Shown here piece by piece: positions 7,271 through 23,604 of a stretch of 24,391 nt of DNA. Position 1 is the stretch's first letter. Each line of letters opens with the position of its first letter. The DNA comes from a virus, in IMG/VR virus record IMGVR_UViG_3300039106_000015, positions 1 through 24,391 of that record; one strand, written 5' to 3'. The notes beneath the pieces were generated by a model. It saw nothing but the letters and a program-made list of their open reading frames with translations. It searched no databases and had not been told where the DNA came from. Made by a program: the position numbers and the translations under genes.

Positions 7271-7735
7271 TTAGAACAAATATCTCTCTCTAGCAAATTT
7301 AAAGAGATATGATAATAGTAGACCTATGCCTACTCCTACAAATAATAGACTAAGATTTCCATTAGGTCTAGGTCTTTCTGCTTTAACTTTTTTTACCTCA
7401 GACTTTGCCTTTTGTCCCTCAGCTCTATACTTATATTTATATACTAATCTATCTTTATAGATAGTTTTTACTTGTATTTTATATTCTATTCTTTTATCCT
7501 GTCTAGTCTTAGGTACATATACTGTCTTATACTTAATGATAGTATCCTTAGTATTAATAATTTTCTGCCATACTATAGTATCATTAATTATAACAGGTAT
7601 AGAATCTAGTGTAGTGATCCTAATAGTATCACCTGTCTGCTCACATTTATATCCTTTCTTAATTGCTTTATTAAGATGGTATTGTGCAGAGCATGAGCTA
7701 AGCAGTAAGATAATTACACTAAGTCTAAATATCAT
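7271..7735 (-). CDS. Phage lipoprotein, probable unimolecular spanin (u-spanin)
   Basis: A 154-residue protein with a lipoprotein signal peptide at the N-terminus (MIFRLSVIILLLSSC, lipobox LSSC, acylated Cys15) and one hydrophobic helix near the C-terminus (about residues 127-146, LSLLFVGVGIGLLLSYLF) followed by basic residues. An outer-membrane lipid anchor and an inner-membrane anchor in one chain is the defining topology of u-spanins, which fuse the two membranes at lysis. The middle is strand-rich with TIR/TTLD and YKYKYR stretches and ends in a basic linker. It follows the holin and lysis enzyme genes directly (11-base overlap), which is the expected position. I chose the ATG at 7735 over a TTG at 7744. 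Confidence 0.72.
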   Translation of the reverse strand: MIFRLSVIILLLSSCSAQYHLNKAIKKGYKCEQTGDTIRITTLDSIPVIINDTIVWQKIINTKDTIIKYKTVYVPKTRQDKRIEYKIQVKTIYKDRLVYKYKYRAEGQKAKSEVKKVKAERPRPNGNLSLLFVGVGIGLLLSYLFKFARERYLF

Positions 7736-8315
7736 TTGATTCAATTAAGGTATAAGTAAAGTGATTACCATGTATATCTTTAGCTCTATTAACTATCACC
7801 ATAAACTCATTAAAATCTTTTACTCTTTTAAATACCTGACAGCCCTCTGACCAATTTTCTACAAAGCTAGATACTGTACCTGCTTTATGGATATTGATTC
7901 CGAGCATACCTGTATCAGTCTTACCCTGTGCAAAGGTCATATCTCTATCACCATCTCTCCATACAGTCACATCTCCTAATCTTTGGCATAATGCCTGATA
8001 TTTTCCCTGATGCATAGATACAGCATAGACTCCTTTATATTGATTAGGTACTAATCTAGCTACTCCCTTAGCATTATGGAATTGCATTACTCCTTTTTTA
8101 CCTGGCTCAGTAGTAGCATCCCACTCATGGTAGTGCCATTTCCCATCTACTCTATAAGAGATAGTTAATTTGTCATCAAAGAGATTAGTAACTTTTTGAC
8201 CTGGTGCTGAGTTACGAACTCCTACAATATTTACATCATAGTCTTTAGCACCTGCAAAGTAAAGATATCCTTTAGCTTTTACAGCTGCTGCTATTTGCTC
8301 TCTAGTGTATATCAT
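7725..8315 (-). CDS. Probable peptidoglycan lysis enzyme with an L,D-transpeptidase-like signature
   Basis: A 196-residue protein between the holin and the spanin-like gene, where an endolysin is expected. It contains GINIHKAG (His143) followed by WSEGCQVF (Ser156, Cys159). This His...S-x-G-C order resembles the YkuD L,D-transpeptidase catalytic motif rather than a lysozyme or NlpC/P60 amidase. No signal peptide is seen, so export would depend on the holin. It may act as an endopeptidase or carboxypeptidase on the cell wall. The ATG at 8315 overlaps the holin stop as ATGA. Role by position is fairly secure; the exact chemistry is uncertain. Confidence 0.65.
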   Translation of the reverse strand: MIYTREQIAAAVKAKGYLYFAGAKDYDVNIVGVRNSAPGQKVTNLFDDKLTISYRVDGKWHYHEWDATTEPGKKGVMQFHNAKGVARLVPNQYKGVYAVSMHQGKYQALCQRLGDVTVWRDGDRDMTFAQGKTDTGMLGINIHKAGTVSSFVENWSEGCQVFKRVKDFNEFMVIVNRAKDIHGNHFTYTLIESNDI

Positions 8316-8776
8316 TTCTTTATCTTTTTAATGTCATCATTAATATCCTTAGCTCTAGCTAGTAGATTCTTTAATGATGACCATAGGTCCAAATGATAGA
8401 CTTGCTTGTATGACTCATTAATAGACATCACCTCAATACTAGCTAGGACCAATGCCACTACTTTAGTGAGCATGAATGGTACACTAAAAAAAGTTAGTAT
8501 GATATCATTTAGTATGAATTGGTCTATTAAAAAGAACATAATCACAGTAACTTCATAAAGTGCTAACTTGCTTATAATAGATGAGAGCTTTCTGCTAGTT
8601 ATTTTCTCCTTTAATTTATTAGCTTTCCAAATACCTGTGATAGTATCAATGCATATTAGTACTCCTATCATTAGCAGTATCCCACTTATTGGTAAAAAGA
8701 ATGCAAAGCAAATAGATATAAGTGTCAATAGTTCTGATTGAATTGATATTAGTAATAGTGTTAGTTGTGCTTTCAT
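8312..8776 (-). CDS. Phage holin, family 4-type
   Basis: A 154-residue membrane protein with about four hydrophobic segments (roughly residues 5-22, 25-45, 70-90 and 93-115). It contains IDTITGIWKANKLKEKITSRKLSSII, which matches the conserved D-x-TG-x(n)-K-x(n)-S(S/R) core of the toxin-secretion/phage lysis holin family (Phage_holin_4). A later IEVMSINES recalls the family's E/N-rich segment. The C-terminus is a charged helix. It should form the inner-membrane lesion that releases the lysis enzyme. ATGA overlaps tie it to both neighbours. Confidence 0.85.
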   Translation of the reverse strand: MKAQLTLLLISIQSELLTLISICFAFFLPISGILLMIGVLICIDTITGIWKANKLKEKITSRKLSSIISKLALYEVTVIMFFLIDQFILNDIILTFFSVPFMLTKVVALVLASIEVMSINESYKQVYHLDLWSSLKNLLARAKDINDDIKKIKK

Positions 8777-8934
8777 TCTTTAGATTCAATTTCAGATGCT
8801 AGTAAAAAAGTAAAGTAAGATATTAACAGGCATCCTAATAATTTGAAATGTAACTGATCAGCAAATACTAAAGAGATACCTGAAAGATATCCAAAGCCAA
8901 AAGTTAAGAATGATAAAATGCCTGAGTGCTTCAT
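8773..8934 (-). CDS. Small membrane protein in the lysis cassette (53 aa)
   Basis: A 53-codon frame from ATG at 8934 to TGA at 8773. The product starts MKHSGILSFLTFGFGYLSGI and has two hydrophobic segments (about 6-25 and 32-47) with a charged C-terminus (SEIESKE type). It overlaps both the connector gene and the holin gene as ATGA, which strongly supports it as a real coupled gene. A second holin, an antiholin or a lysis regulator are possibilities from its position; none can be chosen from sequence. Confidence 0.72.
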   Translation of the reverse strand: MKHSGILSFLTFGFGYLSGISLVFADQLHFKLLGCLLISYFTFLLASEIESKE

Positions 8935-9497
8935 AATATTAAGATTGAATTGTTATAACCATTATTTCCTGCACCTCCACATAGACCATTGCACTCTAGC
9001 ATTCCATTAGATAGACAATTACATCCATCTATCATAGGCCTAAGGTCAGTATCTCTGTTAGTAGTACCTGTGAAGATAGGATACAAAGCTCTGTTCTTAA
9101 GTAAGTATCTAATCAATCTCTGCTCAAAGAATGCAGCCTTTTGTGCATAGTGTTCCATACTGAATGCTATAGTACCTCTATCTACTGATGAGCTATTATC
9201 TCCAAATTGAGTCTGTAGACCTTTATTCTTTAGCTGTAGACTAAGACCAAATACAGCATCCTCTGCTGCTCTCCATGCTATAATAGGCTGTATAAATGTA
9301 ACTAGCACCTCCTCATCAGGATCTAATGTCTGATCATTGTACTTAGTTAGCAAGTCATTATAAAATGTAGTACCTAAGATAGGCATGATTCTTAGCTGAG
9401 CTTGAGTAGCTAAGTATGGAGTGACATTATTTACATCTACATTAGCTGTGATGGGTGTGTTATTCTTTAAGTAAGTTTCTGTTATAAAGTATAGCAT
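8931..9497 (-). CDS. Head-tail connector-type protein, DUF6712-like
   Basis: A 188-residue protein coded directly after the portal (stop and start share one base, TAATG). It reads ETYLKNNTPITANVDVNNV, LPILGTTFYNDLL, FIQPIIAWRAAEDAV and LKNKGLQTQFGDNSSSVD. This set is typical of the DUF6712 proteins of Bacteroidota phages, which by position act as head completion or adaptor proteins. The C-terminal 35 residues contain a Cys/Gly cluster (CNCLSN, ECNGLCGG) that could bind a metal. Mostly helical otherwise. The adaptor role is inferred from gene order. Confidence 0.75.
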   Translation of the reverse strand: MLYFITETYLKNNTPITANVDVNNVTPYLATQAQLRIMPILGTTFYNDLLTKYNDQTLDPDEEVLVTFIQPIIAWRAAEDAVFGLSLQLKNKGLQTQFGDNSSSVDRGTIAFSMEHYAQKAAFFEQRLIRYLLKNRALYPIFTGTTNRDTDLRPMIDGCNCLSNGMLECNGLCGGAGNNGYNNSILIL

Positions 9498-10807
9498 TAT
9501 AGTATAGGTGTTTGTGCAATTTGTGATTTGCTTTTATCTCCACCCGGTACAGGAGGTAAAGATGCTAAGGCTCTAATCTCATTCTCAGTCATAGTCTCAA
9601 GTACTTTAGTAGCTACCAATGGTGATAAACTATTAAGTGCATCATTAGTCTTAGAGGTATCTCCCTCAAGCTCTACAATAGCCTCGTTAATTATCTGATA
9701 GTTATTGATAGTAAAATCTGCATCAATCTTCGCTATGAATAACAGCTCATTAAAGATGTCAGATACCATATCTCTCAATGGCATTACTACATTTTTCTCA
9801 AATATGATATAAGCCTGCTTTATATCTGAGCCATTACCTAATGAGCCTGTAGTACGGATTCCCATAAGTATAGGATCAATGGTATGACTAAAGCATATCT
9901 GCTCAGTGTTTAGCTGTGATGCCTCTTGAAATAGACTATCATTACCATTGGTAGGTAGTGACTCTATCTTAGGCAGTTGGTCCTGTGAGTTAGCAAAGAA
10001 TGCCACAGCTTTACCTGCATTAGCAGCACCTTTCAATCTATCAATGGTATTTCTTATCATGTTTTTCTCCTCCTCAGACTGAGGTCTTTTAGGGAACATC
10101 ATAGCAAAGCTAGGAAATACTGAATTTTGTATATTACTTTTAGCAAAGTAGCTAAGTTCACCTGATAGGAATGCAAAGTTAAGTGCTGAGGTGTATTGAG
10201 GTAATGGATAGTAATCCTGTCCAATACATTCTACCTCATATACAAATAACTGCTCGTAATCTCTAGAGGTAGGTGAGTATCTCCTTATCTCCTGTACTCC
10301 AATCCTACTAGACCAATCGTCACAGATATAGTATCTCTTTCTATCTAAGTTTACTCTAAGTTTCTCAGGGGATAGATTGACTATCTTTGTGAGCTTCATT
10401 TTCTCATCAAAGCATAGCTTGAAATATACTCTATTATGTAGGATTAGTTGCTGAGTTACTGCAGGTACTACTTTTTTTATGTTTAGTTTTCTCTCAAGTG
10501 TGTATAGCTCTAGCTTATCCTGTGGAGTAAGTCTATCAGCCACAATATTAAATCCACCACCTACAGCTGCATTCACTTTATACCCCACTATTGAGCCATG
10601 TAATGGACTGCTGTAGAATATTTGATTGAGTAGCTCAGGGAATAGGTTATCCTGCCCGAATGGGATGTATCCATTAGTCTGATTCCTACCATTAACATAA
10701 GGTAGAGTTAAGTTAGCACCTCCTACTTTAAGGAATGGAGTAGAGAATGATTGATATCCCTCTACTATTTCATGCTTTACTGTTTTAAAAAAATCTTTTA
10801 ATGCCAT
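9497..10807 (-). CDS. Portal protein
   Basis: A 436-residue protein that forms the dodecameric DNA gate of the capsid. N-terminal PYVNGRNQTNGYIPFGQDN and LFPELLNQIFYSSPLHGSIV, the central DDWSSR/VYEVECIGQDYYPLPQY region and TGSLGNGSDIKQAYIIFEKNVVMPLRDMV near residues 310-340 are the usual hallmarks of portals in this phage group. The last 40 residues (EIRALASLPPVPGG) resemble the C-terminal clip or barrel-adjacent tail with the ASLPP pattern. Its length is normal for siphovirus portals. It is separated by two bases from the gene upstream. It lies late in the operon, far from the terminase, which is an unusual order. Confidence 0.88.
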   Translation of the reverse strand: MALKDFFKTVKHEIVEGYQSFSTPFLKVGGANLTLPYVNGRNQTNGYIPFGQDNLFPELLNQIFYSSPLHGSIVGYKVNAAVGGGFNIVADRLTPQDKLELYTLERKLNIKKVVPAVTQQLILHNRVYFKLCFDEKMKLTKIVNLSPEKLRVNLDRKRYYICDDWSSRIGVQEIRRYSPTSRDYEQLFVYEVECIGQDYYPLPQYTSALNFAFLSGELSYFAKSNIQNSVFPSFAMMFPKRPQSEEEKNMIRNTIDRLKGAANAGKAVAFFANSQDQLPKIESLPTNGNDSLFQEASQLNTEQICFSHTIDPILMGIRTTGSLGNGSDIKQAYIIFEKNVVMPLRDMVSDIFNELLFIAKIDADFTINNYQIINEAIVELEGDTSKTNDALNSLSPLVATKVLETMTENEIRALASLPPVPGGDKSKSQIAQTPIL

Positions 10808-10809
10808 AA

Positions 10810-11151
10810 TTACTCATAAATTGATGATACTATCGGTCCACTTACTACCATCCTGCCCTCTTCAATCACTACTCCTGTAGAGTTTTCAATAGTTGGAGGT
10901 GTGGTACTTGACTCATAGATGCTATATGTATACTGTCCTTTGACTAACTCCAAATCTACAGGCTCGTCTAACTCAAACTGATTAAATCTTTCAGGATAAG
11001 CTGATAGATCAGCAGTGTAGAATGTAATAGGTGCAGACAGCTTGTCCATTTCATTCTGAAAAACAAATAAATAATAAGGATTAGGCAGTGTACTTACCTC
11101 AGTGAGTGTAAGGATTATCTGATTAACCTCATCTTTTTTAATGTATATCAT
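10810..11151 (-). CDS. Small structural protein, beta-rich
   Basis: A 113-residue protein with alternating short strands and loops: IYIKKDEVNQIILTLTEVS, YYLFVFQNEMDKLSAPITFY, FELDEPVDLELVKGQYTYSIYES and a closing EEGRMVVSG. The pattern suggests an immunoglobulin-like or similar beta-sandwich domain. It sits between the tail tube-type gene and the portal and carries one of the four conserved leader elements just before its ATG. It lies after a terminator, so its own expression probably depends on readthrough or on a local promoter that I could not find. Proteins of this kind recur in Bacteroidota phages without assigned function. Confidence 0.7.
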   Translation of the reverse strand: MIYIKKDEVNQIILTLTEVSTLPNPYYLFVFQNEMDKLSAPITFYTADLSAYPERFNQFELDEPVDLELVKGQYTYSIYESSTTPPTIENSTGVVIEEGRMVVSGPIVSSIYE

Positions 11152-11170
11152 ATAACTATATTATATTAAG
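11152..11170 (-). promoter_or_regulatory. Conserved leader element, copy 1
   Basis: The minus strand reads CTTAATATAATATAGTTAT directly before the start codon of the 113-residue protein. The same leader, ending TATAATATAGTTATG, precedes genes starting at 13718 and 15449, with one base changed at 23575. In this copy two extra bases (AT) separate it from the start. It probably acts as an A/T-rich translation start signal in a host without Shine-Dalgarno use. Confidence 0.6.
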
Positions 11171-11184
11171 GTCAAAAAATGTTT

Positions 11185-11215
11185 AAAAAAAAAGCTCTAC
11201 AATATGCAGAGCTTT
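11185..11215 (-). terminator. Rho-independent terminator after the tail tube-type gene
   Basis: On the minus strand AAAGCTCT (11215-11208) pairs with AGAGCTTT (11198-11191) around a 9-base loop, followed by a T run to 11185. It lies about 20 bases beyond the stop of the 168-residue gene, so the abundant capsid and tail tube messages are partly ended here before the portal. Confidence 0.87.
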
Positions 11216-11234
11216 AATTATTAAGGTGTTAGTA

Positions 11235-11741
11235 TTATGGAGTAACTCCTGCTACTTGACCTGATGTAGCCTCATATGCCAAGTGCTCAGCTTCCGCCAA
11301 AAGTGTAACGGAATATTTACTGCCATCTGCACGAGCTGTACCTGATCCCTCACCTGTTGCAGTAAGTTGTAGATTCTCAAAGTACCAATACTTGTCATTA
11401 GCATCTTGAATCAATGCAGATAAAAATTGCTGACCTGCACCAAGTACATGGATAGCTTCTGACTTCTCTTTATCTCTACGATTAAACATTAGAGTAATAG
11501 TCTGAGTAACAAAGCTAGAGCCATTGATTAGGTCTACTGCAGTCTCTTCTGTATAATTACCTGTATTTCTGTTAATCTCAAATACAGTATAATCAGATGT
11601 AGCAGATAATGCAGATAATATCCATGTATTAGGAGCTACTGTAGCAGTAACATTGTCTTGCTCATTAATCCATATTTTTTTAATACCTCCGATATTATTA
11701 TCGCAGGGCTTAGTTATTGTTTGTAACGCTTCACAGCTCAT
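11235..11741 (-). CDS. Probable major tail (tube) protein
   Basis: A 168-residue protein directly after the major capsid gene and followed by a strong terminator, both fitting an abundant structural product. It starts MSCEALQTITKPCDNNIGGIKKIWINEQDNV and contains FEINRNTGNYTEE, VTQTITLMFNRRDKEKSEAIHVLGAGQQ and SGTARADGSKYSVTLLAEAEHLAYE. The strand-helix-strand plan with a final (A/V)TLxAEAxHxAxE segment is typical of tail tube folds in this phage group. A capsid decoration protein is the main alternative. Two Cys residues near the N-terminus are notable. The start ATG at 11741 lies after the hairpin downstream of the capsid gene. Confidence 0.55.
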   Translation of the reverse strand: MSCEALQTITKPCDNNIGGIKKIWINEQDNVTATVAPNTWILSALSATSDYTVFEINRNTGNYTEETAVDLINGSSFVTQTITLMFNRRDKEKSEAIHVLGAGQQFLSALIQDANDKYWYFENLQLTATGEGSGTARADGSKYSVTLLAEAEHLAYEATSGQVAGVTP

Positions 11742-11758
11742 TGTATATGTTTTAAGTA

Positions 11759-11778
11759 AAGGGAGCTTTCACTCCCTT
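11759..11778 (-). terminator. Stem-loop after the major capsid gene (weak terminator or stabiliser)
   Basis: AAGGGAG and CTCCCTT form a perfect 7-base-pair stem around a 6-base loop between the stop of the capsid gene and the start of the tail tube-type gene. The tract after it on the minus strand is only TACTTAAAA, so termination would be weak. It may instead shield the capsid message from 3' exonucleases. Confidence 0.6.
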
Positions 11779-11797
11779 AGATTTATAAATTAGTTAA

Positions 11798-12739
11798 TTA
11801 AGATGCAGAGTTGTAGAATACAATCTCATTACCATTAACATGAGTAAATCCTACTTTCATATTTGCACGAGTTCTGATTACAGGCTCAGCAACAGTATCA
11901 GCTAAATTGATAGCTCGTAATGCTTTACCATCTCCCTCAGCATCAAATGCATAAATGAAATTTAAGCGAGGTGATGCAACAATCTTAGAAAGACTTAACA
12001 TACCTGGACACAATACCATCTTAATTCCTAAGTAAGTAAAGTCTAGAGCTTGTGTTAAGTTAGCCTGAGTATTTGATGCAGCAACAGCAGCACGATAAGC
12101 AGTAGCTACAGGAGAAGATACATAGAATCTTAGCTCCTCTTGATTAGCAATTACAGCAGGAGGGATAGCAGCATATACTAAAGCTAATTTCTCAAGTACA
12201 TTTGCAGGAGTAATAGCTGGAGGTGTAGCTCCACCTACTTCAATTACATTAGCTGAATCAGCTACCAATCCTTTGATGTATCCATCACATAAAGCTAAAG
12301 CAGCAGTACCTGATGCAGTATCACCTGACCATCGTAATTTCTCAATGTTCTCAGCGATTGTCTTAGACATCTCATTCCAATAGTAATCCATGAAAGAAGC
12401 TACAGAAAAATCACCGTTAGATCCTTTAGTCATTTGTAAAGATACAAAAGACTGCTCTAATTGGAATTGACATATCTCAGCCATTGCTGATAATCCACAT
12501 ACATCAATCTCTACAGATGCAAGTTCATCAGTTGAAGAGTTCCATCCACAGTTCTCAGCTTGTAAAACTTGACCAAATACTACATTAGATATTTTAGTCT
12601 TATACTTTACTCCTGGTAGTGTACGATAGTTATCTACTACTTCCTCATTCAAATAAGCTCGGCTATAGAATGCCTCACTGTTAGCTTGTAATAATGCAGA
12701 TGCATCAATGTCCAAGTCAAATTTTAATTTTCTACTCAT
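11798..12739 (-). CDS. Major capsid protein (probable HK97 fold)
   Basis: A 313-residue protein that follows the prohead protease gene, the usual place for the capsid subunit. It starts MSRKLKFDLDIDASALLQANSEAFYSRAY and contains LPGVKYKTKISNVVFGQVLQAENCGW, SFMDYYWNEMSKTIAENIEKLRWSG and a late stretch LSLSKIVASPRLNFIYAFDAEGDGKALRAINL. These elements match the long-helix (spine), P-domain and capsid strand layout of HK97-like subunits. The closing VIRTRANMKVGFTHVNGNEIVFY is the typical final strand pair. There is no clear delta domain here; scaffolding appears to be supplied by the C-terminus of the protease gene. The leader is purely A-rich before ATG 12739. Confidence 0.83.
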   Translation of the reverse strand: MSRKLKFDLDIDASALLQANSEAFYSRAYLNEEVVDNYRTLPGVKYKTKISNVVFGQVLQAENCGWNSSTDELASVEIDVCGLSAMAEICQFQLEQSFVSLQMTKGSNGDFSVASFMDYYWNEMSKTIAENIEKLRWSGDTASGTAALALCDGYIKGLVADSANVIEVGGATPPAITPANVLEKLALVYAAIPPAVIANQEELRFYVSSPVATAYRAAVAASNTQANLTQALDFTYLGIKMVLCPGMLSLSKIVASPRLNFIYAFDAEGDGKALRAINLADTVAEPVIRTRANMKVGFTHVNGNEIVFYNSAS

Positions 12740-12755
12740 TTTTTTTGTTTTTTAT

Positions 12756-13718
12756 TTAGTTATTATTGTTTAAAAATTTACTTACCATGCTGAATTTATC
12801 ATGCTGTGATAATTTAGTAGCTTCTACTTCTACCACTTCCTCACCTTCAGACATTACTTCCTCCATATGATTTCTTAGATCAGCTATCATTGCAATGATT
12901 GCATTGATTTGCTCATCAATTACAGGTTGAACTATAGCTAAAATAGCTTCAGCATCAGCAGCAGGATCAATAGCCATCTCTTCTGTGGCAGGTGTCTCCT
13001 CTATTACTTCCTCTTCTACTACTGTCTCTTCTAGTGCAATCTCTTCTGTCATTGATTCCTCCTCAACAACAGGTGCATCTTTTATCTCAGTAACTTCTCC
13101 ATCAACAACGATGTAGATCTTACCCTCGATTAGATGTTCTCCATCAGGTAACTTCATACTATATTTATTATTTAATTGATTACTTAGTTTTAAGCCTAGA
13201 AATCCCTCTATTGAGAAACCTATCTGCTCATTCTTTACTAGCTCATTATAGTAATCTTTATCAGTTACCTGAGCTGTTACCATTAATGTGCCTTTAGGTA
13301 CTTCAATACCATAGCTTGAGTAGGCTTTATCTTTCTTAGGATCTTCTACTATCCATGCCTCAAGTACATAAGCAGGTACAGTCTTATCAGTATCATGCTC
13401 TAGGTTAAATACATTCCTATTAGATAAATCTTTCATGAATTTAGAATGTATGTTTTCTATGGTCTCAACTGAGAACTGTACATAGTACTCCTCATCATTC
13501 TCATCATTCCTATATATCTCCATAGGAATCATGGCAGGAGCTACTACTCTATACTTCAAGTCATCTGAGAAAAACAATTTTTTGTTCTCACTAAATGCTA
13601 GCCCTTTGGTAATAATGGCAGGAGTTGAGGTGAAAGCTATTTGCTCAATCCCTAACTCTTCACCATCTGAATACTCAGGCTCTATAGTAATTTTATAGAT
13701 TGGTATGTCTTTTGTCAT
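12756..13718 (-). CDS. Prohead protease (XkdF/S78_2-like) fused to a scaffold-like tail
   Basis: A 320-residue protein that probably cleaves scaffold and capsid proteins during head maturation. Residues about 25-180 fit the XkdF-like serine protease domain: AFTSTPAI, LKYRVVAPAMIPMEIYR, then NLEHD with His108 and GFSIEGFLG with Ser169 as the probable catalytic pair. Residues about 210-260 are extremely acidic (EEE and EETVVEEEV runs), and residues 260-310 are a predicted coiled coil (LAIVQPVIDEQINAIIAMIADLRNHMEEV), as in scaffolding domains. It therefore looks like a natural protease-scaffold fusion. The ATG at 13718 follows a leader element, and 44 bases separate it from the divergent plus-strand gene. 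Confidence 0.85.
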   Translation of the reverse strand: MTKDIPIYKITIEPEYSDGEELGIEQIAFTSTPAIITKGLAFSENKKLFFSDDLKYRVVAPAMIPMEIYRNDENDEEYYVQFSVETIENIHSKFMKDLSNRNVFNLEHDTDKTVPAYVLEAWIVEDPKKDKAYSSYGIEVPKGTLMVTAQVTDKDYYNELVKNEQIGFSIEGFLGLKLSNQLNNKYSMKLPDGEHLIEGKIYIVVDGEVTEIKDAPVVEEESMTEEIALEETVVEEEVIEETPATEEMAIDPAADAEAILAIVQPVIDEQINAIIAMIADLRNHMEEVMSEGEEVVEVEATKLSQHDKFSMVSKFLNNNN

Positions 13719-13745
13719 AACTATATTATATTTTTTTTATATTTG
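13711..13745 (+). promoter_or_regulatory. Candidate promoter for the plus-strand tail chaperone genes
   Basis: TTTG at 13711-13714 is followed after 23 bases by TATATTTG at 13738-13745, a match to the Bacteroidota TAnnTTTG box at the long end of the accepted spacing. The box ends 17 bases before the ATG at 13763, so the leader would be very short. No other promoter for these two isolated genes is visible, and the gap is only 44 bases. Confidence 0.5.
13719..13731 (-). promoter_or_regulatory. Conserved leader element, copy 2
   Basis: The minus strand reads AATATAATATAGTT directly before ATG 13718 of the protease gene, after a run of eight A. It shares TATAATATAGTTATG with the leaders at 11152 and 15450. 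Confidence 0.6.
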
Positions 13746-13762
13746 TTCAAAAATTAGAAACT

Positions 13763-14341
13763 ATGATAAAATTATTCGGCAAAGAAATCCCATCTAAGAT
13801 GGATGAATTAACATTAGAGCAGTTCCAAAAGATATCTGCTATCCATAACAGTGATGAGTATGATACTCTAGAAAAACATTGTAAAGTCTTTGAGTATCTA
13901 GGTATAACTGAGGATGAGATGGATGTAGATTTTGACCTGTTCTTAGCTAATGTTAAAGAGTTTAATAATAATAACTATACTCATAAAGATACAGTAGAAG
14001 AGATAGAGATAGAGGGATATACTTATAAGGCTGAGATGAAGCTCTCAGTAAAAGATAGTAGGATTGTTGAAAAGATTGTTAAGAAAGATAATAAAGAATA
14101 TATATCAGACATTATGGCTCTCATGTTTAAACGAACTGACTTGACTAATACTGAGCATTATGATCCTGCACATCTTAAACACAAAAGTAAACTATTTAGT
14201 AAACTCAAAGCAGATATCTCTATCCCTTACCTTACCTTTGTAACTAACAAAATCACTACCCATGCACAATCACAAACTACCCAAGCAGTGGAATCAGATA
14301 TCAGTATCTCAGTTCCTGGAGCTGAGGAGTCTGAGCAGTGA
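13763..14341 (+). CDS. Tail assembly chaperone-like protein, first of a pair
   Basis: A 192-residue protein on the plus strand. The N-terminal pattern SKMDELTLEQFQKISAIHN recalls the (L-E-x(n)-W-x-E-(I/L)-T-x-x-Q-(F/Y)) start of proteins found beside tape measure genes in Bacteroidota phages. A central acidic region is followed by YISDIMALMFKRTDLTNTEHYD and PYLTFVTNKI, similar to the second plus-strand protein. The two are thus distant paralogues, and by analogy with lambda G/GT-type pairs may be tail assembly chaperones for the tape measure. The C-terminal 27 codons overlap the next gene in another frame. It runs against nearly all other genes here and has its own promoter-like site. Confidence 0.6.
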   Translation: MIKLFGKEIPSKMDELTLEQFQKISAIHNSDEYDTLEKHCKVFEYLGITEDEMDVDFDLFLANVKEFNNNNYTHKDTVEEIEIEGYTYKAEMKLSVKDSRIVEKIVKKDNKEYISDIMALMFKRTDLTNTEHYDPAHLKHKSKLFSKLKADISIPYLTFVTNKITTHAQSQTTQAVESDISISVPGAEESEQ

Positions 14342-14990
14342 GGATGGAATGTTTAACTATCAGATTGATGTACTTTCTGCTTTAACAGATAGCGATATCT
14401 CTGATTTTGAGGACCTAGATATAGATGAGCTAGGGGAATTAGCTAAGGAGATTAAATGGATACAGTCAGAGCCATCTAGGAGGTATAAGAATAAGATAGA
14501 TAACTATGTGCTTAAGCCTTATTCTAAACTATCACTAGGTGAGTTCATAGACCTAGAGCATTACTTCTCTAATAACTACCTAGATCACTTCTGTCATATC
14601 TTAGCCTTACTCTACAGGAGGACATCTAAGAATATTTATGGTGATGACATTATAGAGCCTTATGAGTATAGTCCTAGAGATAGATTAGATTGGTATTTAG
14701 ACTATCCTATTACTGATGTTTATGGATTGATACCTGAGTATATAAAATTTAGGGAGAACTTTACTAATACTTATACTAATCTACTAGCAGATGTAGTGAC
14801 TGATGACGAGGTGCTTGAAGATGCTGATGAGATTAAAGAGCAGAAGAGAGAACAGCAGAGACAAAAGTTCGCATGGGAATCTACTATCATGGCTCTATGC
14901 AATGATGACTTAAGTAAGTTCAATAGTATCTTAGAGATGCCTGTAGTATTAGTGTTTAATATCTTAGGAATGAAAAAGACTTTAGACTAG
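14262..14990 (+). CDS. Tail assembly chaperone-like protein, second of a pair
   Basis: A 242-residue paralogue of the preceding gene, starting at ATG 14262 inside it in the +1 frame (80-base overlap). It begins LPKQWNQISVSQFLELRSLSS, a complete N-terminal domain of its own, and continues with an acidic linker, KLSLGEFIDLEHYFSNNYLDHFCHILALLYRRTS and a helical C-terminus rich in charged residues (EIKEQKREQQRQKFAWE). The HILALLYRRT and PITDVYGLIPEYI stretches align with DIMALMFKRT and SIPYLTFV of the first protein. The 3' end overlaps the end of the convergent minus-strand gene by nine bases. Role by analogy: partner chaperone for the tape measure. Confidence 0.62.
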   Translation: MHNHKLPKQWNQISVSQFLELRSLSSEDGMFNYQIDVLSALTDSDISDFEDLDIDELGELAKEIKWIQSEPSRRYKNKIDNYVLKPYSKLSLGEFIDLEHYFSNNYLDHFCHILALLYRRTSKNIYGDDIIEPYEYSPRDRLDWYLDYPITDVYGLIPEYIKFRENFTNTYTNLLADVVTDDEVLEDADEIKEQKREQQRQKFAWESTIMALCNDDLSKFNSILEMPVVLVFNILGMKKTLD

Positions 14991-15449
14991 TAGAGGGAAT
15001 CCTTGACTAAATCCTGCAGGAGGATCTAGTGCATAGAATGTATATGTAAGTCTTTGGTCTTTCTCTAAGAAATCAGCTACTGCTAAGATAGGATAGTTCT
15101 TAGTAATCCATTCTACATACTGACTATATATCTCATTAGTGATACCTGCATTAGCTAACTCTCTAGTAAAAGTATTCACCCAATCTCTAGGAGCTATAGC
15201 TCCATCATTAGGACCGTATGCATTAGCAGTCTGAGGTACTCCATTATTCAAAAAGATAAAGTAATACATGGCTATTATCTCAATCTCTAAGCTACCGAAT
15301 CCTGTAACTTTAGCATTGATTCTTATAGACTCTACTAGTGTACCATTGTTTTGTACAATATCATTCCTTACAATCCTCTTTAATAGAGCAGCCATTCTCC
15401 TACGAGTAGGATACAATATATTAAATTCACCTGTATTCTTATATGCCAT
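14982..15449 (-). CDS. Head-tail joining or neck-type protein
   Basis: A 155-residue protein preceded by a conserved leader element. It starts MAYKNTGEFNILYPTRRRMAALLKRIVRND and contains FGSLEIEIIAMYYFIFLNNGVPQTANAYG, followed by WVNTFTRELANAG. The basic N-terminal helix and the middle strand with a YFxFLNNG turn recall the HK97 gp10-like head-tail joining family, where a similar strand ends in W-x-E-x-G. It is followed tail-to-tail by the plus-strand island. The assignment rests on position (between tail completion and protease genes) and this weak pattern. Confidence 0.5.
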   Translation of the reverse strand: MAYKNTGEFNILYPTRRRMAALLKRIVRNDIVQNNGTLVESIRINAKVTGFGSLEIEIIAMYYFIFLNNGVPQTANAYGPNDGAIAPRDWVNTFTRELANAGITNEIYSQYVEWITKNYPILAVADFLEKDQRLTYTFYALDPPAGFSQGFPLLV

Positions 15450-15470
15450 AACTATATTATATTAATTAAG
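15450..15470 (-). promoter_or_regulatory. Conserved leader element, copy 3
   Basis: The minus strand reads TTAATATAATATAGTTATG up to and including the start codon at 15449-15447, the fullest match to copy 1. Confidence 0.6.
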
Positions 15471-15909
15471 CATTTTGTTCAGGAATTTGACAGTTGGTCC
15501 ATGACTTAATCACTACTGAAAGATTCATCTGCCACCCTGCAGCATAGTCTAGTAGATCATTATTCAATGGTATAAAGATAGGCTGTCCATCTATATCAAA
15601 GTCATAGTCATCACTAAATGTAAACTCTAGATATAGGTCCTGTAGTATCTGCTGAGTATCCGATAAGATAGTAGTGATGTTAGCTCTATCCATCTGTATG
15701 ATATCAAAGCAATATACTTCTATATTAAAGATAGAGACATTCTGATAGGGAGTAACTCCACTAGGTACTACATATACTAGAGGATACTTCTCATCTTTAG
15801 TAGCAAAGTTCACCATCTGCTCTTTAAAGTCTGAGCCTACCTTTTTAACTTGTGCATGATTGTCATAGAAAGCAGTAATTTTATCTACTATGGATTGATA
15901 GCTTATCAT
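15466..15909 (-). CDS. Tail terminator or tail completion-type protein
   Basis: A 147-residue protein between the tape measure and the neck-type gene. It contains YPLVYVVPSGVTPYQNVSIFNIEVYCFDII, then TTILSDTQQILQDLYLEF and DYDFDIDGQPIFIPLNNDLLDYAAGWQMNLSVVIKSWTNCQIPEQ. The FNIEVYxxD strand, the SDTxQILxD helix and the last DYAAGW strand make a compact alpha/beta fold like tail terminator (gpU-like) proteins, which cap the tail tube. This motif set recurs in Bacteroidota phages. The ATG overlaps the tape measure stop as ATGA, so it is translated together with it. Confidence 0.6.
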   Translation of the reverse strand: MISYQSIVDKITAFYDNHAQVKKVGSDFKEQMVNFATKDEKYPLVYVVPSGVTPYQNVSIFNIEVYCFDIIQMDRANITTILSDTQQILQDLYLEFTFSDDYDFDIDGQPIFIPLNNDLLDYAAGWQMNLSVVIKSWTNCQIPEQNA

Positions 15910-17990
15910 AATACTGAATTATTTTGGATGTTATTAATATGATTCTGTGATGCTGTTATCTCAGTCTCAGATACTACTGCTGTTACTGTTATGTTATTAG
16001 AGCCACCTCCTGCATTCACTTGACTACCTGTATTAGCTTGCCCAAATAGACTAGGTCCTGATGGTGCTACTGCTGTAGTAGATGGTGTAGGAGTATCAGT
16101 GCTAGGAGCTGTACCTGATGTAAATGTAGTAGATGCTATCTTAGCTATATTAGTAGCTGAGGTAACTGCAGCAAATGCTAGTGATGCTATACCTGCAGGA
16201 TTAGGGACAGGACCTATAGCTATAGGTGAGGATGCTAGGGATGCTGTAATAGCTTTACCTGCATCTACTATTGCACCTGCTAACTGCATAGACTTATTTA
16301 ATTGGAATTGTTTTTTTAGCAGTGCCTCCTCTTCTTTACTACCTTTCTTAACTTTCTTAAGTTTATTATCCATAGCCAGGTTAGTGATACCCTCAATAGC
16401 TGAGACAGTATTAGCTGCATAATCTAGAGCTGCATCTGCAGTCTTTAACTGCTCAGCTCTTTTTTTCTCTTCTGCCTCTTTGACAATAGCTACTTCTTTA
16501 TCTTTAGCATCTTTAGTGATATCAGCTAGACTAGTCTCTAGCTCAGTCTTAAGTTGTTTTAGTAATGGATCTCCCTCTTTTAATAAAGCTACTTTCTCAT
16601 CAAATGCTGCTAATAAAACTGCTTTCTCATAATCTGCAGTAAGTATTAACTGCTTAACTTTATCCTGCTCATTAGCTGCAGTAAGTCTCTGAATCTCTAA
16701 GTACTTTTCATCTTCTAATTTAATAGCAGCTGCTATATCTTCTTTATCCTTTTTATCCTTAGCTTCTTTTTCTAATCTAATTCTTTCAGCTTCTTTGTTA
16801 TTAATATTATTAAGCTCATTCAATCTCAATGTCTCAAGCTCACCTGTATCTTTCTTATACTTTATAGCCTTAGCTATTAGATCAGCATACTTTGCCTCTA
16901 CAGCATTTTTCTCTACAGTGATAGCATCTAGAGTAGCATCTATATTAGCCTGTCTAGCTTTGTCAATTTCTTTCTGTATCTCATCTCCTCCTGTATCTTT
17001 TTGCTTAGGTGCTTTAGGTGCTTTAGGCTCTCTAGGTGCTTTAGGCTCTTTAACAGGCTTATTCTCGTCAGTCAGTTTAGTATTAATTAATACCTGTCTA
17101 CCTGATTTGCTATCTAATATTAATTTATTCTCTGCTGCTATCTGAGCTCTCAAAGCAGCTAATTTCTTTTGATCTGCCTCATCACCTAATGCTAGCTCTC
17201 TATAATATGCTGCTCTTGCTAGTTTTAGTCTTTCATTAGCAGCCCATTGTACTATGTATGTTCTCTTAACTTCTAAGTCATAAGTGTTCTTACCTAGTGC
17301 TTTCTGTTCTGCTATCTGCCTATCTATTGCAGAGGTAGCTAAGTCAGTAGACTCATTAATACTAGCAGCTCCATCTTCATAAGCCTTAGCAGTTTTTTCT
17401 GCAGATTCCTCAGCAGCATATTGTGTAAGTCCTAACCAATCTGTAAGGTTTTTAAAGCCTTGAATTAATGCATTGATAGGCATCATTAGTGCATTTAGTA
17501 CATCATCTAATACTCCAAATGATTTTAGTACTAAAGCCACTACAGCTATAATAGCTACTACTGCAGCTACTATTAAAAATATAGGATTCATTAAGATAGT
17601 TACTCCTAGTTTTATAAATGCTTTTGATAGTGTGCCTATCATACTAGTAATACCACCTATTGACTTAGCTATGTCAGCCTTACCTATACTACCTAATGCT
17701 GTAGCAAATACCTTAGACTTCTCTGCTGCCTCTTCAAAGTCCAGGCTCATCAATGAGCTTTGTATACCTCCTAGTCCATTGCTTACCTGTTCAAACTTAG
17801 AGCCTGATGCAAATACTTTAACTGCCTCATTAGTATCCTTAATCTTATCAGTGAGTACACCTGCCTGTTGAGCAAGTGCAGCCATTTGTGCAGGATCAGT
17901 AGCATTAGCTAACTCACCTTTCAATTCTCTTAACTCAGCTTTCATCTGAGCTATGCCCTGTATCTTAAGGGGGATTACTACTTCATTCAT
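15906..17990 (-). CDS. Tape measure protein
   Basis: A 694-residue protein that sets tail length. N-terminal helices (IAQMKAELRELKGELANATDP, then QQAGVLTDKIKD) match the start of tape measures. Residues about 127-156 form a hydrophobic block (LGVTILMNPIFLIVAAVVAII and following) that would cross the host membrane during DNA injection. A proline-alanine-lysine linker (KEPKAPREPKAPKAPKQK type, about 310-335) precedes a long coiled coil with many Lys/Glu repeats, and a Ser/Thr/Pro-rich tail ends the protein. At about 1.5 angstrom per residue the tail would be near 100 nm. The start overlaps the upstream baseplate gene by 8 bases and the end is an ATGA. Long open frames on the other strand here are composition shadows. 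Confidence 0.87.
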   Translation of the reverse strand: MNEVVIPLKIQGIAQMKAELRELKGELANATDPAQMAALAQQAGVLTDKIKDTNEAVKVFASGSKFEQVSNGLGGIQSSLMSLDFEEAAEKSKVFATALGSIGKADIAKSIGGITSMIGTLSKAFIKLGVTILMNPIFLIVAAVVAIIAVVALVLKSFGVLDDVLNALMMPINALIQGFKNLTDWLGLTQYAAEESAEKTAKAYEDGAASINESTDLATSAIDRQIAEQKALGKNTYDLEVKRTYIVQWAANERLKLARAAYYRELALGDEADQKKLAALRAQIAAENKLILDSKSGRQVLINTKLTDENKPVKEPKAPREPKAPKAPKQKDTGGDEIQKEIDKARQANIDATLDAITVEKNAVEAKYADLIAKAIKYKKDTGELETLRLNELNNINNKEAERIRLEKEAKDKKDKEDIAAAIKLEDEKYLEIQRLTAANEQDKVKQLILTADYEKAVLLAAFDEKVALLKEGDPLLKQLKTELETSLADITKDAKDKEVAIVKEAEEKKRAEQLKTADAALDYAANTVSAIEGITNLAMDNKLKKVKKGSKEEEALLKKQFQLNKSMQLAGAIVDAGKAITASLASSPIAIGPVPNPAGIASLAFAAVTSATNIAKIASTTFTSGTAPSTDTPTPSTTAVAPSGPSLFGQANTGSQVNAGGGSNNITVTAVVSETEITASQNHINNIQNNSVL

Positions 17991-20784
17991 ATACTCTGAT
18001 TTCTAGGGTGTTGTTATTAAGGTGTGAATCGTGATACGATGCAGTTGGATTTTGTAGGTTGGTAGTACTTATCTGAATAGTATTATCATCTCTTCTATTT
18101 GACAATACCATGCTATTAAGCACTACATTGCTAAGCATTACATAAGTCTTATTAGCAGTAAATGCACCTGTAAGTGTACCAAAATATATACCTACTGCTG
18201 TGCGAGTCCAAACTATAGGTCCTATTGTATTTTCTAGCTCTATGACTGTAGGATCTGCAGTACTACTCTGACTAATCAAAGCTATGTACTTAGTGTAGGT
18301 AGGTAGGATGTCACTAACAGCTCTACCATTTAATGTATTAGTCACTGTAAGATTAGTAGTAGCTATACCATCACTAGTCAAAGACTGATAATCTCCTACT
18401 ACTATCCCTCTCACTCCATCAGTCACTATGTTACCTGAGCCAAAGATTAGAGCATCAGTGTTATTAGTAGTGACATTAGTAGTAGATCTGTAGGCATTCA
18501 TGATACTATTAATCTGAGTACCATTACCTGGTCCTACAGGAGTATCAGGTCCACCTGCAAAGTTAGGTAGGTCTATCTCAGTCTCTAAACTAATCAGCTC
18601 TACTTTGGTAGGTGATGAATCATTAGCATTATAATCTATAATCTTATTAATACTCCACCATGAATTGTCTATCCTTATCTTATCATTCAGCTCCATGTAT
18701 TGGATGTCAGTCTCTCTAAGATAAAAGTAGGCAGTCAATAGCTTACCTCCATTTATCTGTGCTACTGTTCTCCTCCAATATGAATTGTAAAGATTGTTAT
18801 TAGTGTTCTGAGTTACCTGATAGTAGTAGTATTGACAGGGTGCAAAGTTAATATCAAAGGTAGGATTAAAGGGATCAGCTCCTCCAAAGTGTGAGAGGTA
18901 GGGATAGACTCCACCTGTAGATAAATTGTTATCATAGCTTGAAAGTATAAAAGCCTCCTGAGCAGTTACCTGTCCATTATCAAATAAGATTCTTATATTA
19001 GTCTTAGGTGCTGCACCATTGAGTAATGGTAGGAATGCACCAAACTCTGTACGCTGTACAGGAGTAGGTGAGAAGATAAGCTCTTTGACATCTATCTCCT
19101 TTACATACTCATTGTCAAAAGTTACCTCTACCTGTCCATAGATTTCTCTAGTCACATCAGTATATACTGTATTAGGTGAGTCAGTATCTGCCTTGTAGCT
19201 GAGTCTTAGTTTCTTATTGTTAAGCTCAGGGATAAAGATTATAGACTGCTCTTTGTCTTTCATTAGTAGGTTAGTCCAATCTACTGCCTTACCTGAATCA
19301 TAGTACTCATCTCTAGCGATTAGTATTAGGTTATTCTCATTCTCAATATCAGGAGTAGCATATAGATTATACATCATAAAGATGCTCTTAATGAAATCTG
19401 ATTGCTTAATCTTCTCAGGAATAAATGTATTCATAAACACATCACCACTATTCAATGGGATGTTATCAGATGGTCTGATAGTAAGCTCTAAAGTTGTTAC
19501 ATCTACTTGAATTTCAGGAGGAGTAAATGGTCCTACTAATGGTGATGCTACTATCTGCCAATAAGGTTGACCATTACCATAAGGACCAGGTATATCCTCA
19601 CCATTTACATCAGCAGCTACAGCCTCTACTCCTAATACTAATAGCTGTATATCTGCATAGTCTATACCTAATTGATCTACATCATTGAATGCACCTTGAA
19701 ATGTTAGTATATTGTCAAAAGTTCCTATCTGTGTAGTAGTAGATATTGGGCTTGTACCATCAAAAAATATAGGTGTACACCTTACACTAAAATTACCATT
19801 AGTTGCAATCCTAGCTCCTAACTTTACATAGTAGTTTACATAATTTGCAGTAGAGTTACTGCTAGGTATAAGAGTAACAGTACCTGTAATCCTAGCTGAG
19901 TATTCATAGAATTGACCTGATGCATTATTAGTCCATTGAGGAGTAGTGTACTCTCCATTGCTAGCATCATATATACCTGCAGGATCTGATATCTCAGTCC
20001 ATCCTGTAGTGACATTCATAGTAGCTCCTACTTGAAATGCTTGAAAGTAAGGGCTAGTAGTCTGAGTAGCAGTTAAGGTCTGACCTGAGTTCTCTACCTC
20101 TACCTTATAATCATTCCAATCCACTATATTCTGATCACCATTGTATGGAATCAATAGCTTATCAAAGTTAGCAGCTGCTAGTCCATCCCAAGTATATGAG
20201 TATCCTGAGCTAGCAAAGATTCTATCAAAGTAAGTCTGAGCATAGATGCCAGGTTTAAACCAATTTAATTGATACTGATTGTCTATATTAAATGGCATCA
20301 CATACTTATAGCCATCTGTCACTGTATTATTAAAGCTAGCAATTACAGCAGGTGCATCTACTACATGATCTAAGTCTGAGAAATCTAAATCACTCAAATA
20401 CTTATTAGAGATGTCAGTAAAGAATGTGCCTCTATCCTCTTTAATCAATACCTCATACTCCACCATCTGCTCATAGGCTGAGGTGAGCTGTGACTTTCTA
20501 ATGTTAATGAGCTGAAGAGTTGCGTTTGTCATAACAGGGATACCATCCTGAATAACATCACAGCTAGTGAGCTGATTAATATTAAAAGTGCCAGCTTGAA
20601 TGTTTACATCATAGTAGTGATTGAGCAGAGTATTGTTATTGTTATTACCTACTAGAGTAATGGTCTTACTAAAGTTACCTGTCCTTTTAGATATATCTCT
20701 GATATCACCTACACTAAAGTTCAGAGGGAATGATGTACCCTCTTTTACATCTAGGTATCCTGTGCTAAGTTGTATCCTAACCAT
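17983..20784 (-). CDS. Large tail tip or baseplate protein
   Basis: A 933-residue protein translated just before the tape measure. The N-terminus MVRIQLSTGYLDVKEGTSFPLNFSVGDIRDISKRTGNFSKTITL is a common opening of tail tip proteins in Bacteroidota phages, with the SVGDIRD(I/L)xKRTGxxSKTIxLxG segment as its core. Beta-rich central domains follow (many Tyr, Asn and Thr). A section LLMKDKEQSIIFIPELNNKKLRLSYKAD lies near residue 510. The C-terminal 200 residues (SIMNAYRSTTNVTTNNTDAL onward) look like a beta-stranded appendage possibly used for fibre attachment. Distal tail or tail-associated protein is the best call by position; no peptidase motif was seen. Confidence 0.72.
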   Translation of the reverse strand: MVRIQLSTGYLDVKEGTSFPLNFSVGDIRDISKRTGNFSKTITLVGNNNNNTLLNHYYDVNIQAGTFNINQLTSCDVIQDGIPVMTNATLQLINIRKSQLTSAYEQMVEYEVLIKEDRGTFFTDISNKYLSDLDFSDLDHVVDAPAVIASFNNTVTDGYKYVMPFNIDNQYQLNWFKPGIYAQTYFDRIFASSGYSYTWDGLAAANFDKLLIPYNGDQNIVDWNDYKVEVENSGQTLTATQTTSPYFQAFQVGATMNVTTGWTEISDPAGIYDASNGEYTTPQWTNNASGQFYEYSARITGTVTLIPSSNSTANYVNYYVKLGARIATNGNFSVRCTPIFFDGTSPISTTTQIGTFDNILTFQGAFNDVDQLGIDYADIQLLVLGVEAVAADVNGEDIPGPYGNGQPYWQIVASPLVGPFTPPEIQVDVTTLELTIRPSDNIPLNSGDVFMNTFIPEKIKQSDFIKSIFMMYNLYATPDIENENNLILIARDEYYDSGKAVDWTNLLMKDKEQSIIFIPELNNKKLRLSYKADTDSPNTVYTDVTREIYGQVEVTFDNEYVKEIDVKELIFSPTPVQRTEFGAFLPLLNGAAPKTNIRILFDNGQVTAQEAFILSSYDNNLSTGGVYPYLSHFGGADPFNPTFDINFAPCQYYYYQVTQNTNNNLYNSYWRRTVAQINGGKLLTAYFYLRETDIQYMELNDKIRIDNSWWSINKIIDYNANDSSPTKVELISLETEIDLPNFAGGPDTPVGPGNGTQINSIMNAYRSTTNVTTNNTDALIFGSGNIVTDGVRGIVVGDYQSLTSDGIATTNLTVTNTLNGRAVSDILPTYTKYIALISQSSTADPTVIELENTIGPIVWTRTAVGIYFGTLTGAFTANKTYVMLSNVVLNSMVLSNRRDDNTIQISTTNLQNPTASYHDSHLNNNTLEIRVYE

Positions 20785-22156
20785 TGATAGGAGTATTAAG
20801 AGCTAGCTTAATAGTTACTGATTGCTTAATTAGATTCTTATTTCGCTGTCTAAAGTTCTCAAAGGATGAAGAGTCTATAGTGCAAGCTCTATAGTCAGTG
20901 CCATTGTAGTAGAATACTTGAGGAGATGTTAGTAGCTCTTGAAATCTATTAGCATTGTATTGGTCCATCCAATTAGTATTTAAGTCTAAGGTGTTAGATA
21001 CATTGATATTATAAGTTCTGCTACCCATAGCCTCTGAGTTGTACACCCATTCATTACTTACTACCTGTCCATCTATATGCTGATTATACATCTCTCTAGT
21101 TATCTGCCCTTTCTCATAGGTCTTAAGCTGAAAGTTAAAAGATTGCCATGATCCCATTCTATCTAAGTAGTATAGTATATCTTCATTGATAGCACATCTA
21201 TTGTCATAGCTAAAATAGTAGTAAAATTTAGCAGCAGAGTTAGCAATCTCTATATAGAAATCCTCAGTAATAGAATAAGCAGATGTATCTACAGGGAAAT
21301 TATATAAACCATCTGCAGGATTATAAGTACCATCTACTCCTAATGGATTGCCATTCATATCATAATAGGTAAGAGTATAAGGATCTCCACTATATACCCT
21401 GCACATCAGATAGAAGATATTATCTGTGATAGATGCTGCAGTAGATGAGGTGTTAGGATTAGTAAGTGATGTTAGTGCATAGGCAGGTATAGCAGTAGCT
21501 AGATATTCTGCAGATGGGAATGATCCTTGAGCATAGATACCTAAGCTATAAGCTCCATTGAATACCTCCTGGTCCTCTATCACCTCATCGTCTATTACTT
21601 GAGTCTTTCTCTGATCTGCATAGCTTACATTACCATTAATATCAGGATCACCAATAGTAGTCCAAAGTACATTGACAGTAAAGTCATTAGCAGCAGCATA
21701 TATTACAGTATGCAATCCCTCAAGTGCAGGATTAGCTACTCCACCATCTGCTTGTACAATAAGTACCTGATCTCCTACTTGAAAGCCATGAGCTGTATAA
21801 GCGATGTTAGTATTTAATCCATCTATTGTCAGAGCTGAGGTATAGTCTATATTATCTATAAACTCATACCCTAGTCTAATTCTATACTGATACCATGACT
21901 CATTGACTTGCCCTGATGTAAAATTCCATGTCACTAATGACTGCATCAGTCTACTTATATCCTGCTCACCATACCCTGTACTATATGCAGGTAGCACTCT
22001 ATACTGAGCTATCAGAGTATTAGATCCTGCAGGATAGATACTAAAGATATATCTAAAGCCAGGCTCATTCTTATTAGTATTATCTATGATATACTTAATA
22101 GGATTATAAGCAGGCATCAGTACCTGAGGCTGTGCTATGATTGTAGTGCTAGGCAT
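20777..22156 (-). CDS. Tail or baseplate protein with FCCH-like domain
   Basis: A 459-residue protein upstream of the tail tip gene (8-base overlap). N-terminal QPQVLMPAYNPIKYIIDNTNKNEPGFRYIFSIYPAGS is a strand-rich module seen in tail proteins of this phage group. Residues about 105-166 (LTIDGLNTNIAYTAHGFQVGDQVLI through DFTVNVLW) resemble the E1-FCCH-type beta-barrel inserted in many phage structural proteins, with the HGFxxGDxVxI core. The C-terminal third (YFSYDNRCAINEDILYYLDRMGSWQSFNF) recalls modules that build the baseplate wall. It starts immediately after the small coiled-coil gene (TAGATG). Exact structural role is unknown. Confidence 0.68.
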   Translation of the reverse strand: MPSTTIIAQPQVLMPAYNPIKYIIDNTNKNEPGFRYIFSIYPAGSNTLIAQYRVLPAYSTGYGEQDISRLMQSLVTWNFTSGQVNESWYQYRIRLGYEFIDNIDYTSALTIDGLNTNIAYTAHGFQVGDQVLIVQADGGVANPALEGLHTVIYAAANDFTVNVLWTTIGDPDINGNVSYADQRKTQVIDDEVIEDQEVFNGAYSLGIYAQGSFPSAEYLATAIPAYALTSLTNPNTSSTAASITDNIFYLMCRVYSGDPYTLTYYDMNGNPLGVDGTYNPADGLYNFPVDTSAYSITEDFYIEIANSAAKFYYYFSYDNRCAINEDILYYLDRMGSWQSFNFQLKTYEKGQITREMYNQHIDGQVVSNEWVYNSEAMGSRTYNINVSNTLDLNTNWMDQYNANRFQELLTSPQVFYYNGTDYRACTIDSSSFENFRQRNKNLIKQSVTIKLALNTPING

Positions 22157-22312: not shown

Positions 22313-22314
22313 AA

Positions 22315-23220: not shown

Positions 23221-23233
23221 TATTTATATTTAA

Positions 23234-23575: not shown

Positions 23576-23592
23576 AACTATATTACATTAAG
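23576..23592 (-). promoter_or_regulatory. Conserved leader element, copy 4
   Basis: The minus strand reads CCTTAATGTAATATAGTTATG up to and including the start codon of the 113-residue protein (ATG 23575-23573). Compared with copy 1, which also has CCTTAAT, only one base differs (G for A). Confidence 0.58.
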
Positions 23593-23604
23593 GTTGCTTT
23601 TTGT

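Follow-up and report, generated by a model that had tools for sequence, protein, structure and literature searches.

Two adjacent genes that run against the virion genes around them raise the questions of whether such an arrangement is a lasting property of a phage group, what may control the two genes, and what they do. The analyzed window (the whole stretch of 24,391 bases, positions 1 to 24,391 of the IMG/VR virus record IMGVR_UViG_3300039106_000015) contains one such pair, denoted here ORFa and ORFb, which the first-pass annotation, made from the sequence alone, described as chaperone-like genes of tail assembly. In many phages the tail chaperones are made as a frameshift pair from the strand of the virion block, and few features of long-tailed phages are as constant as the chaperones with their frameshift.

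Anatomy of the inverted gene pair

ORFa and ORFb are the only credible plus-strand genes of the window, all other credible genes being on the minus strand, and their coordinates and strands are those given in the first-pass annotation. The remaining plus-strand ORFs were judged not credible, being short and lying nearly all over longer minus-strand ORFs. The features are as follows.

12756..13718, minus strand: XkdF-like head protease, divergent neighbour (Pfam PF14550, E 2e-9)
13738..13745, plus strand: TATATTTG, predicted -7 element for ORFa and ORFb, Bacteroidota housekeeping (sigma-A) type
13763..14341, plus strand: ORFa, 192 aa, short paralogue by profile comparison (codon-position signature, paralogy with ORFb, conservation)
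14262..14990, plus strand: ORFb, 242 aa, long paralogue by profile comparison (region shared with ORFa and a C-terminal domain)
14262..14341, plus strand: overlap of the ORFa 3' end with the ORFb 5' end, 80 nt, +1 phase
14982..14990, no strand assigned: tail-to-tail overlap of ORFb and the neck-type gene, 9 nt
14982..15449, minus strand: neck-type gene, convergent neighbour (assigned in the first-pass annotation; conserved position)
15906..17990, minus strand: tape-measure-like gene (named from length and position alone)

The start of ORFa is separated by 44 bp from the start of the divergent protease gene (13718), and ORFb converges on the neck-type gene, as had been described initially; the mutual overlap of ORFa and ORFb was absent from that description.

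Profiles matched only the portal, protease, DUF6712 and capsid-like genes of the window. There was no confident match for the neck-type gene (best PHROGs E 0.16; none in Pfam), for the tape-measure-like gene (PHROGs and Pfam), or for the window's ORFa and ORFb (PHROGs and Pfam), and tblastn of ORFa and ORFb against phage records gave no match. As read from the translations, the genes at 7725-24372 are ordered along transcription as terminase-like, tail, tape measure, neck, protease, capsid, portal and lysis, the head genes coming after the tail genes. The tube protein is guessed to be encoded at 11235-11741.

Conservation of the inverted layout

Loci came from IMG/VR viral contigs, scanned seven times, and from a single portal-based scan of genome contigs. 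After duplicates and incomplete pairs had been dropped, there were at least 215 unique complete ORFa/ORFb pairs (two with a broken ORFb), and the phage group with the inverted pair is larger than the loci listed. Among the listed relatives, identity to the window's ORFb ranges from about 98% down to 39%.

The comparison of gene order in related phages, which the first-pass annotation had proposed as a check, revealed the inverted layout in all 215 listed pairs. In particular, wherever the respective neighbour was found, it is on the strand opposite to the pair, which holds for the protease (214/214 listed pairs), the neck gene (211/211), the capsid-like gene (205/205), the tape-measure-like gene (157/157) and the portal (130/130). 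The g147 gene is opposite in 172 of 173 listed pairs, and the contig that deviates, L202, where ORFb is also frame-broken, accounts for the single exception in the 11 neighbour genes scored. Moreover, the 3' overlap of ORFb with the neck gene (4, 9, 11 or 12 nt) is kept in 205 of 210 listed pairs, although two types of neck gene, about 40% alike, occur.

Almost every locus was reached via ORFa or ORFb, and therefore loss of the pair could not show up. The portal scan is the sole exception among the locus-yielding scans, and its single locus, L215 (JAIXRY010000011.1), carries the pair. This locus sits in a metagenome-assembled genome suggestive of Patescibacteria, and we take it to be, most likely, a mis-binned Bacteroidota phage. 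When 96 genomes of the phylum of L215 were searched, only its own genome matched; tblastn with its ORFb gave staphylococcal matches only (E 0.4 or worse), and the ORFb scan of genome contigs yielded no relative. The inverted pair is shared by all relatives found and is not an oddity of one contig. The group apparently consists of uncultured tailed phages, and its host phylum is most likely Bacteroidota.

Coding signal and the overlap of the two genes

Outside the overlap, third codon positions are the most variable ones in both ORFs (55 pairs of the window's clade), and the second clade (36 pairs) shows the same pattern in both. ORFa and ORFb are plus-strand genes, both evolving as proteins. 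The probability that the pair is a mechanical or assembly artefact, such as a chimera or spurious ORFs, is negligible, this reading being excluded by the variability of codon positions together with a layout that is the same in 215 unique listed pairs from many metagenomes.

ORFa and ORFb overlap by 23-80 nt, in the +1 phase in 215/215 listed pairs. The identical phase speaks for a programmed +1 (or -2) frameshift fusing ORFa to ORFb in the manner of gpG/gpGT of phage lambda, with ORFb alone not being the functional form, but several observations make such a fusion very improbable. In 5 pairs only 26 nt are open in both frames (other pairs reach up to 131 nt), which leaves little room for a conserved frameshift site. 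ORFb has its own start codon (by the nearest-start rule, ATG in 196, GTG in 18 and TTG in one of the listed pairs), which in 191 of 215 lies 2-7 residues ahead of the first ORFb motif. Within the overlap, variability tracks the ORFb frame (0.080, 0.057 and 0.145 at positions 1-3, window clade), and therefore the ORFa tail looks passively encoded by the start of ORFb. Finally, the fusion product would hold two copies of the shared domain, since ORFb contains a copy of its own.

Promoter element and other signals

The promoter-like site that the first-pass annotation had assigned to the pair is represented by a conserved motif, TAnnTTTG, which is of the Bacteroidota type. Of the 215 listed pairs, 214 have it beginning 15-30 nt ahead of the ORFa ATG, and the sole miss is L356, a locus beginning too close to ORFa. 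For 192 of the 215 listed pairs the limits of the spacer between ORFa and the protease could be set, which gave 84 unique spacers. The motif is present in 81 of these, in 77 of the 84 at 22-25 nt before ORFa, while 2.8% of shuffled spacers contain it anywhere and the opposite strand of the unique spacers contains it in 0/84.

Among the 33 window genes listed, only ORFa has TAnnTTTG in non-coding DNA within 60 nt upstream; for ORFb and the gene at 20777-22156 the motif lies inside the preceding gene, and for the gene at 23605-24372 just 19 nt of upstream sequence are inside the window. TATATTTGT has a single occurrence in the window. Over the whole window TAnnTTTG is not significantly enriched (35 occurrences vs 25.9 expected, with as many in 8 of 100 shuffles), so that only its place and conservation matter.

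In the passages of PMC6847099 that concern it, the housekeeping promoter of Flavobacterium johnsoniae has the -7 element TAHHTTTG and a weak -33 element, and the corresponding passages of PMC9723704 give TAnnTTTG as the -7 element of F. psychrophilum; the ORFa motif agrees with both. A -33 element is not conserved upstream of ORFa. By the numbering of PMC6847099, as given in those passages, the predicted transcription start would be at about 13750. Candidate sigma-70 promoters were uninformative (16 found vs 18.2 expected in 12500-16000). The sole terminator-like site is at 13789-13803 on the minus strand, and none was found at the end of ORFb.

The protease start carries a different conserved motif, TAATATAG. 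On the minus strand of the window it occurs at 11163, 13728, 15459 and 23585, in each case 2-4 nt before the ATG of a gene (g113, the protease, the neck gene and the 113-aa gene at 23234-23575), while no occurrence before starts is expected from 20 random sequences with the same dinucleotide make-up. In six of eight relatives, the exceptions being L234 and L387, it precedes two or three genes, the protease included. TAATATAG is possibly a phage late promoter or initiation signal.

The presence of a conserved promoter element of its own makes independent control of the pair likely, and the difference between this element and the motif at the protease start makes it likely that the pair and the late genes are controlled separately, as judged from these sequence signals. 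The first-pass annotation had expected antisense overlap and independent control of tail assembly. The antisense overlap is present at the 3' end, with the neck gene; independent control is likely, given the promoter element, and a role in tail assembly is plausible.

Paralogy and predicted structure

Comparison of the ORFb and ORFa profiles (hhalign) gave 92.9% over 144 columns, colinear from the N-terminus, the score having climbed from 1.3% to 69.4% and then to 92.9% as more distant relatives joined. In a rerun with controls the real comparison reached 87.5%, compared with 0.9% or less for 12 column shuffles and 0.2% for the reversed profile. By these profile comparisons, ORFa and ORFb are paralogues.

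The AlphaFold2 model of ORFb has a pLDDT of 80.8 and a pTM of 0.74 (a first model, made from 10 alignment rows, had a pLDDT of 44) and shows a C-terminal helical domain at about residues 203-241 after a low-confidence linker. In a Foldseek search of viral models with it, 38 models matched at E 0.001 or better, and all of them lacked a functional name. Against the PDB there was no match at E 0.001, and in a second look at 37 solved chains the best Z was 2.2. In a sequence search of solved structures the best matches, at E 0.058 with ORFa and at E 0.96 with ORFb, were both implausible.

Co-directional relatives in other phages

One of the Foldseek matches of ORFb is the model I6R9M9 from Nonlabens phage P12024S (E 8.7e-7); a model from Flavobacterium phage 6H matches at E 7.6e-3, outside the E 0.001 limit. 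The ORFb profile (hmmsearch) has its best match in P12024S (JQ823122.1) in gene 38 (E 0.012), and in 6H in gp10 (E 0.0077). I6R9M9 is probably gene 38, judging by the length of 175 aa, and the length of 6H gp10 agrees with that of its Foldseek entry. A direct search of the P12024S genome with deep profiles found nothing. 6H gp10 (191 aa) is a shortened version of gp12 of Flavobacterium phage 2A (293 aa). What separates the two is a minor local difference that includes two gapped bases (L397, 10352-10927) and may be real or a sequencing error.

An alignment of three Duneviridae members gave 7.6% with ORFb and 0.3% with ORFa. When five proteins were aligned (from Ingeline, laban6-1, 2A, a Microcystis phage and Leef), the comparison with ORFb reached 95.8% (E 6.6e-9) over 215 columns, extending into the C-terminal domain, and addition of P12024S gene 38 gave 96.6% over 213 columns. 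Eight shuffles gave at most 1.0%, ORFa against the larger family alignments gave 1.2%, and single family members and P12024S gene 38 against ORFb gave 0.7-15.7%; the match of ORFb to this family depends on the alignment used. Three of the five aligned proteins were scanned, and all three match PHROG 25418, a family not reported in the PHROGs scan of ORFb members.

With the five-member alignment, the PHROG 25418 family and its relatives show profile homology to ORFb over nearly the full length. They comprise 2A gp12, 6H gp10, Ingeline_1 gene 5, laban6-1 gp017, Leef_1 gene 2 and QXN68085, all annotated as 'hypothetical protein'; 2A and 6H are Flavobacterium phages, Ingeline_1 is a Cellulophaga phage, and QXN68085 is from the Microcystis phage. 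Unlike the pair, each is a single gene, co-directional with its virion-gene neighbours, and encodes 259-301 aa (191 aa in 6H). The few neighbours of these genes that were compared with ORFa did not match it. P12024S gene 38 also differs from the pair in being single and co-directional. It directly follows TerL, lies near gene 41, which is g147-like (46%), and is too short for a C-terminal domain of the ORFb type.

The gene order in Ingeline is portal, adaptor, one gene, the ORFb relative, two genes, tape measure. In laban6-1 and 2A the relative is on the strand of the tape measure gene, in Leef three genes separate it from the portal gene, which lies downstream, and in the Microcystis phage it is the second gene after TerL. 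The gene that follows the relative in Ingeline, 2A, laban, Leef and the Microcystis phage had been guessed by eye to be g147-like, a guess that found no support (0.4%). Since the ORFb relatives elsewhere are co-directional, the inversion and the duplication in the studied group are probably derived. By these comparisons, the simplest history would be that a co-directional single gene was duplicated and inverted in this group.

Possible functions of the pair

In the passages of PMC5009743 on lambda gpG/gpGT, these proteins are a short form and a frameshifted long form with one domain in common, and the extra domain of the long form binds the major tail protein. ORFa and ORFb resemble them in several respects: there are two proteins with a common domain, the longer one having an extra C-terminal domain (helices 205-241 of ORFb, beyond the region shared with ORFa), the two reading frames overlap, and both are encoded in the virion module. 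Unlike gpG/gpGT, they are two separate paralogous genes with a host-type promoter element of their own, opposite to the tape-measure-like gene in all listed pairs where it was found, and have no shown frameshift, sequence match or solved-structure match.

With about even confidence, we read ORFa and ORFb as tail assembly chaperones, a short and a long form made from two genes and not from one frameshift. For the chaperone assignment of the first-pass annotation, the short/long paralogues and the relatives of ORFb in virion modules of flavobacterial phages are favourable; two of these phages, Ingeline and Leef, are siphovirus-like according to the statements of PMC8776804 on their morphology, and the Ingeline relative is separated from the tape measure gene by two genes. 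As read from the ORF list, the strand of the tape-measure-like gene in the window shows no conspicuous chaperone-type gene next to it. On the other side, the pair does not have the chaperone position, before the tape measure gene and on the same strand, and the relatives are not consistently beside the tape measure (in P12024S the neighbour is TerL, in Leef the portal is three genes away). Scans of 21 members each of ORFa and ORFb against PHROGs and Pfam matched no known chaperone family. The best PHROGs E values were 0.0039 (ORFb) and 0.00079 (ORFa, two members), both for function-unassigned families, and the best Pfam ones, 0.0077 and 0.008, were not chaperones. PHROG 18582, 'tail assembly chaperone', was hit by one of the 21 ORFa members, at E 0.19 only, and an annotated chaperone model stands at rank 46 (E 0.58) in the Foldseek list of ORFb. 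No inverted chaperone pair is reported in the titles and abstracts found, where coverage is thin for subscription journals.

The main rival to the chaperone reading, which we consider rather unlikely, is that the pair acts as a core factor of head-to-tail joining or head assembly (for example a connector or a scaffold-type helper), the meaning of the inversion and the promoter being unchanged. It gains from the same absence of chaperone profile matches and from the locus L396, where the tape-measure-like gene has moved and the pair has kept its place between protease and neck, an observation that also counts against chaperones. Moreover, the P12024S relative directly follows TerL, and gene 42 in its vicinity has a weak match to a 'tail completion or Neck1' family (E 4e-4). 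However, two paralogues, one with an extra domain, form the short/long pattern of tail chaperones, and the Ingeline relative is downstream of portal and adaptor, two genes from the tape measure gene. The alternative that the first-pass annotation had itself raised, a transferred moron, would make the pair cargo with its own promoter and a non-assembly function (host takeover, counter-defence or regulation). The predicted promoter element, the opposite strand and the lack of a confident match to known families agree with it, but every relative found has the pair in place (with an ORFb about 39-98% identical to that of the window), nearly all of them having been found via the pair; the G+C content of the pair, 0.343, is that of the genome (0.347) and not foreign, and its distant relatives are co-directional virion-module genes in other phages. 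A moron function is therefore improbable, and the pair does not look like a recent moron.

On the reading preferred here, an ancestral single morphogenesis gene would have been duplicated into ORFa and ORFb, and the resulting two-gene transcription unit would be inverted inside the virion-structure operon. Host RNA polymerase with the housekeeping sigma factor would initiate at about 13750 and read through both genes, ORFb translation would start inside ORFa, and the transcript would run antisense into the end of the neck gene. ORFa, as the short form, would coat the tape measure protein, and ORFb, as the long form, would recruit tail tube subunits by its extra C-terminal domain, their ratio being set by two start sites and not by a programmed frameshift. 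More tentatively, duplication may have replaced the stoichiometry of frameshifting, with the flipped pair driven by the host sigma factor, expressed early or constantly, and its mRNA opposed by late antisense transcription. If the chaperone reading is true, a short/long pair encoded as two opposite-strand genes with a separate host-type promoter would show how the ratio of the two forms stays fixed in the absence of recoding, and the order and timing of tail assembly could be tested in isolation from the late transcripts. In addition, the pair serves as a marker of a large group of uncultured phages, and it places an unannotated protein family of flavobacterial phages in a context for the first time.

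Variation of neighbouring genes

In L396 (1-11043) the tape-measure-like and g147 genes are on the far side, next to g188 and the portal, with protease, pair and neck gene together. The two forms of the neck-type gene (window 14982-15449; L010, L014) alternate among otherwise close relatives, and the distance between the neck and g147 genes differs by up to about 2 kb or more, suggestive of gene gain and loss there. Elsewhere in the window, at 3337-4018, there are three small adjacent ORFs, two of which begin with MKQTAVEWL and two end with a YYNxxFKNSxQ-type sequence; this looks like a tandem duplication.
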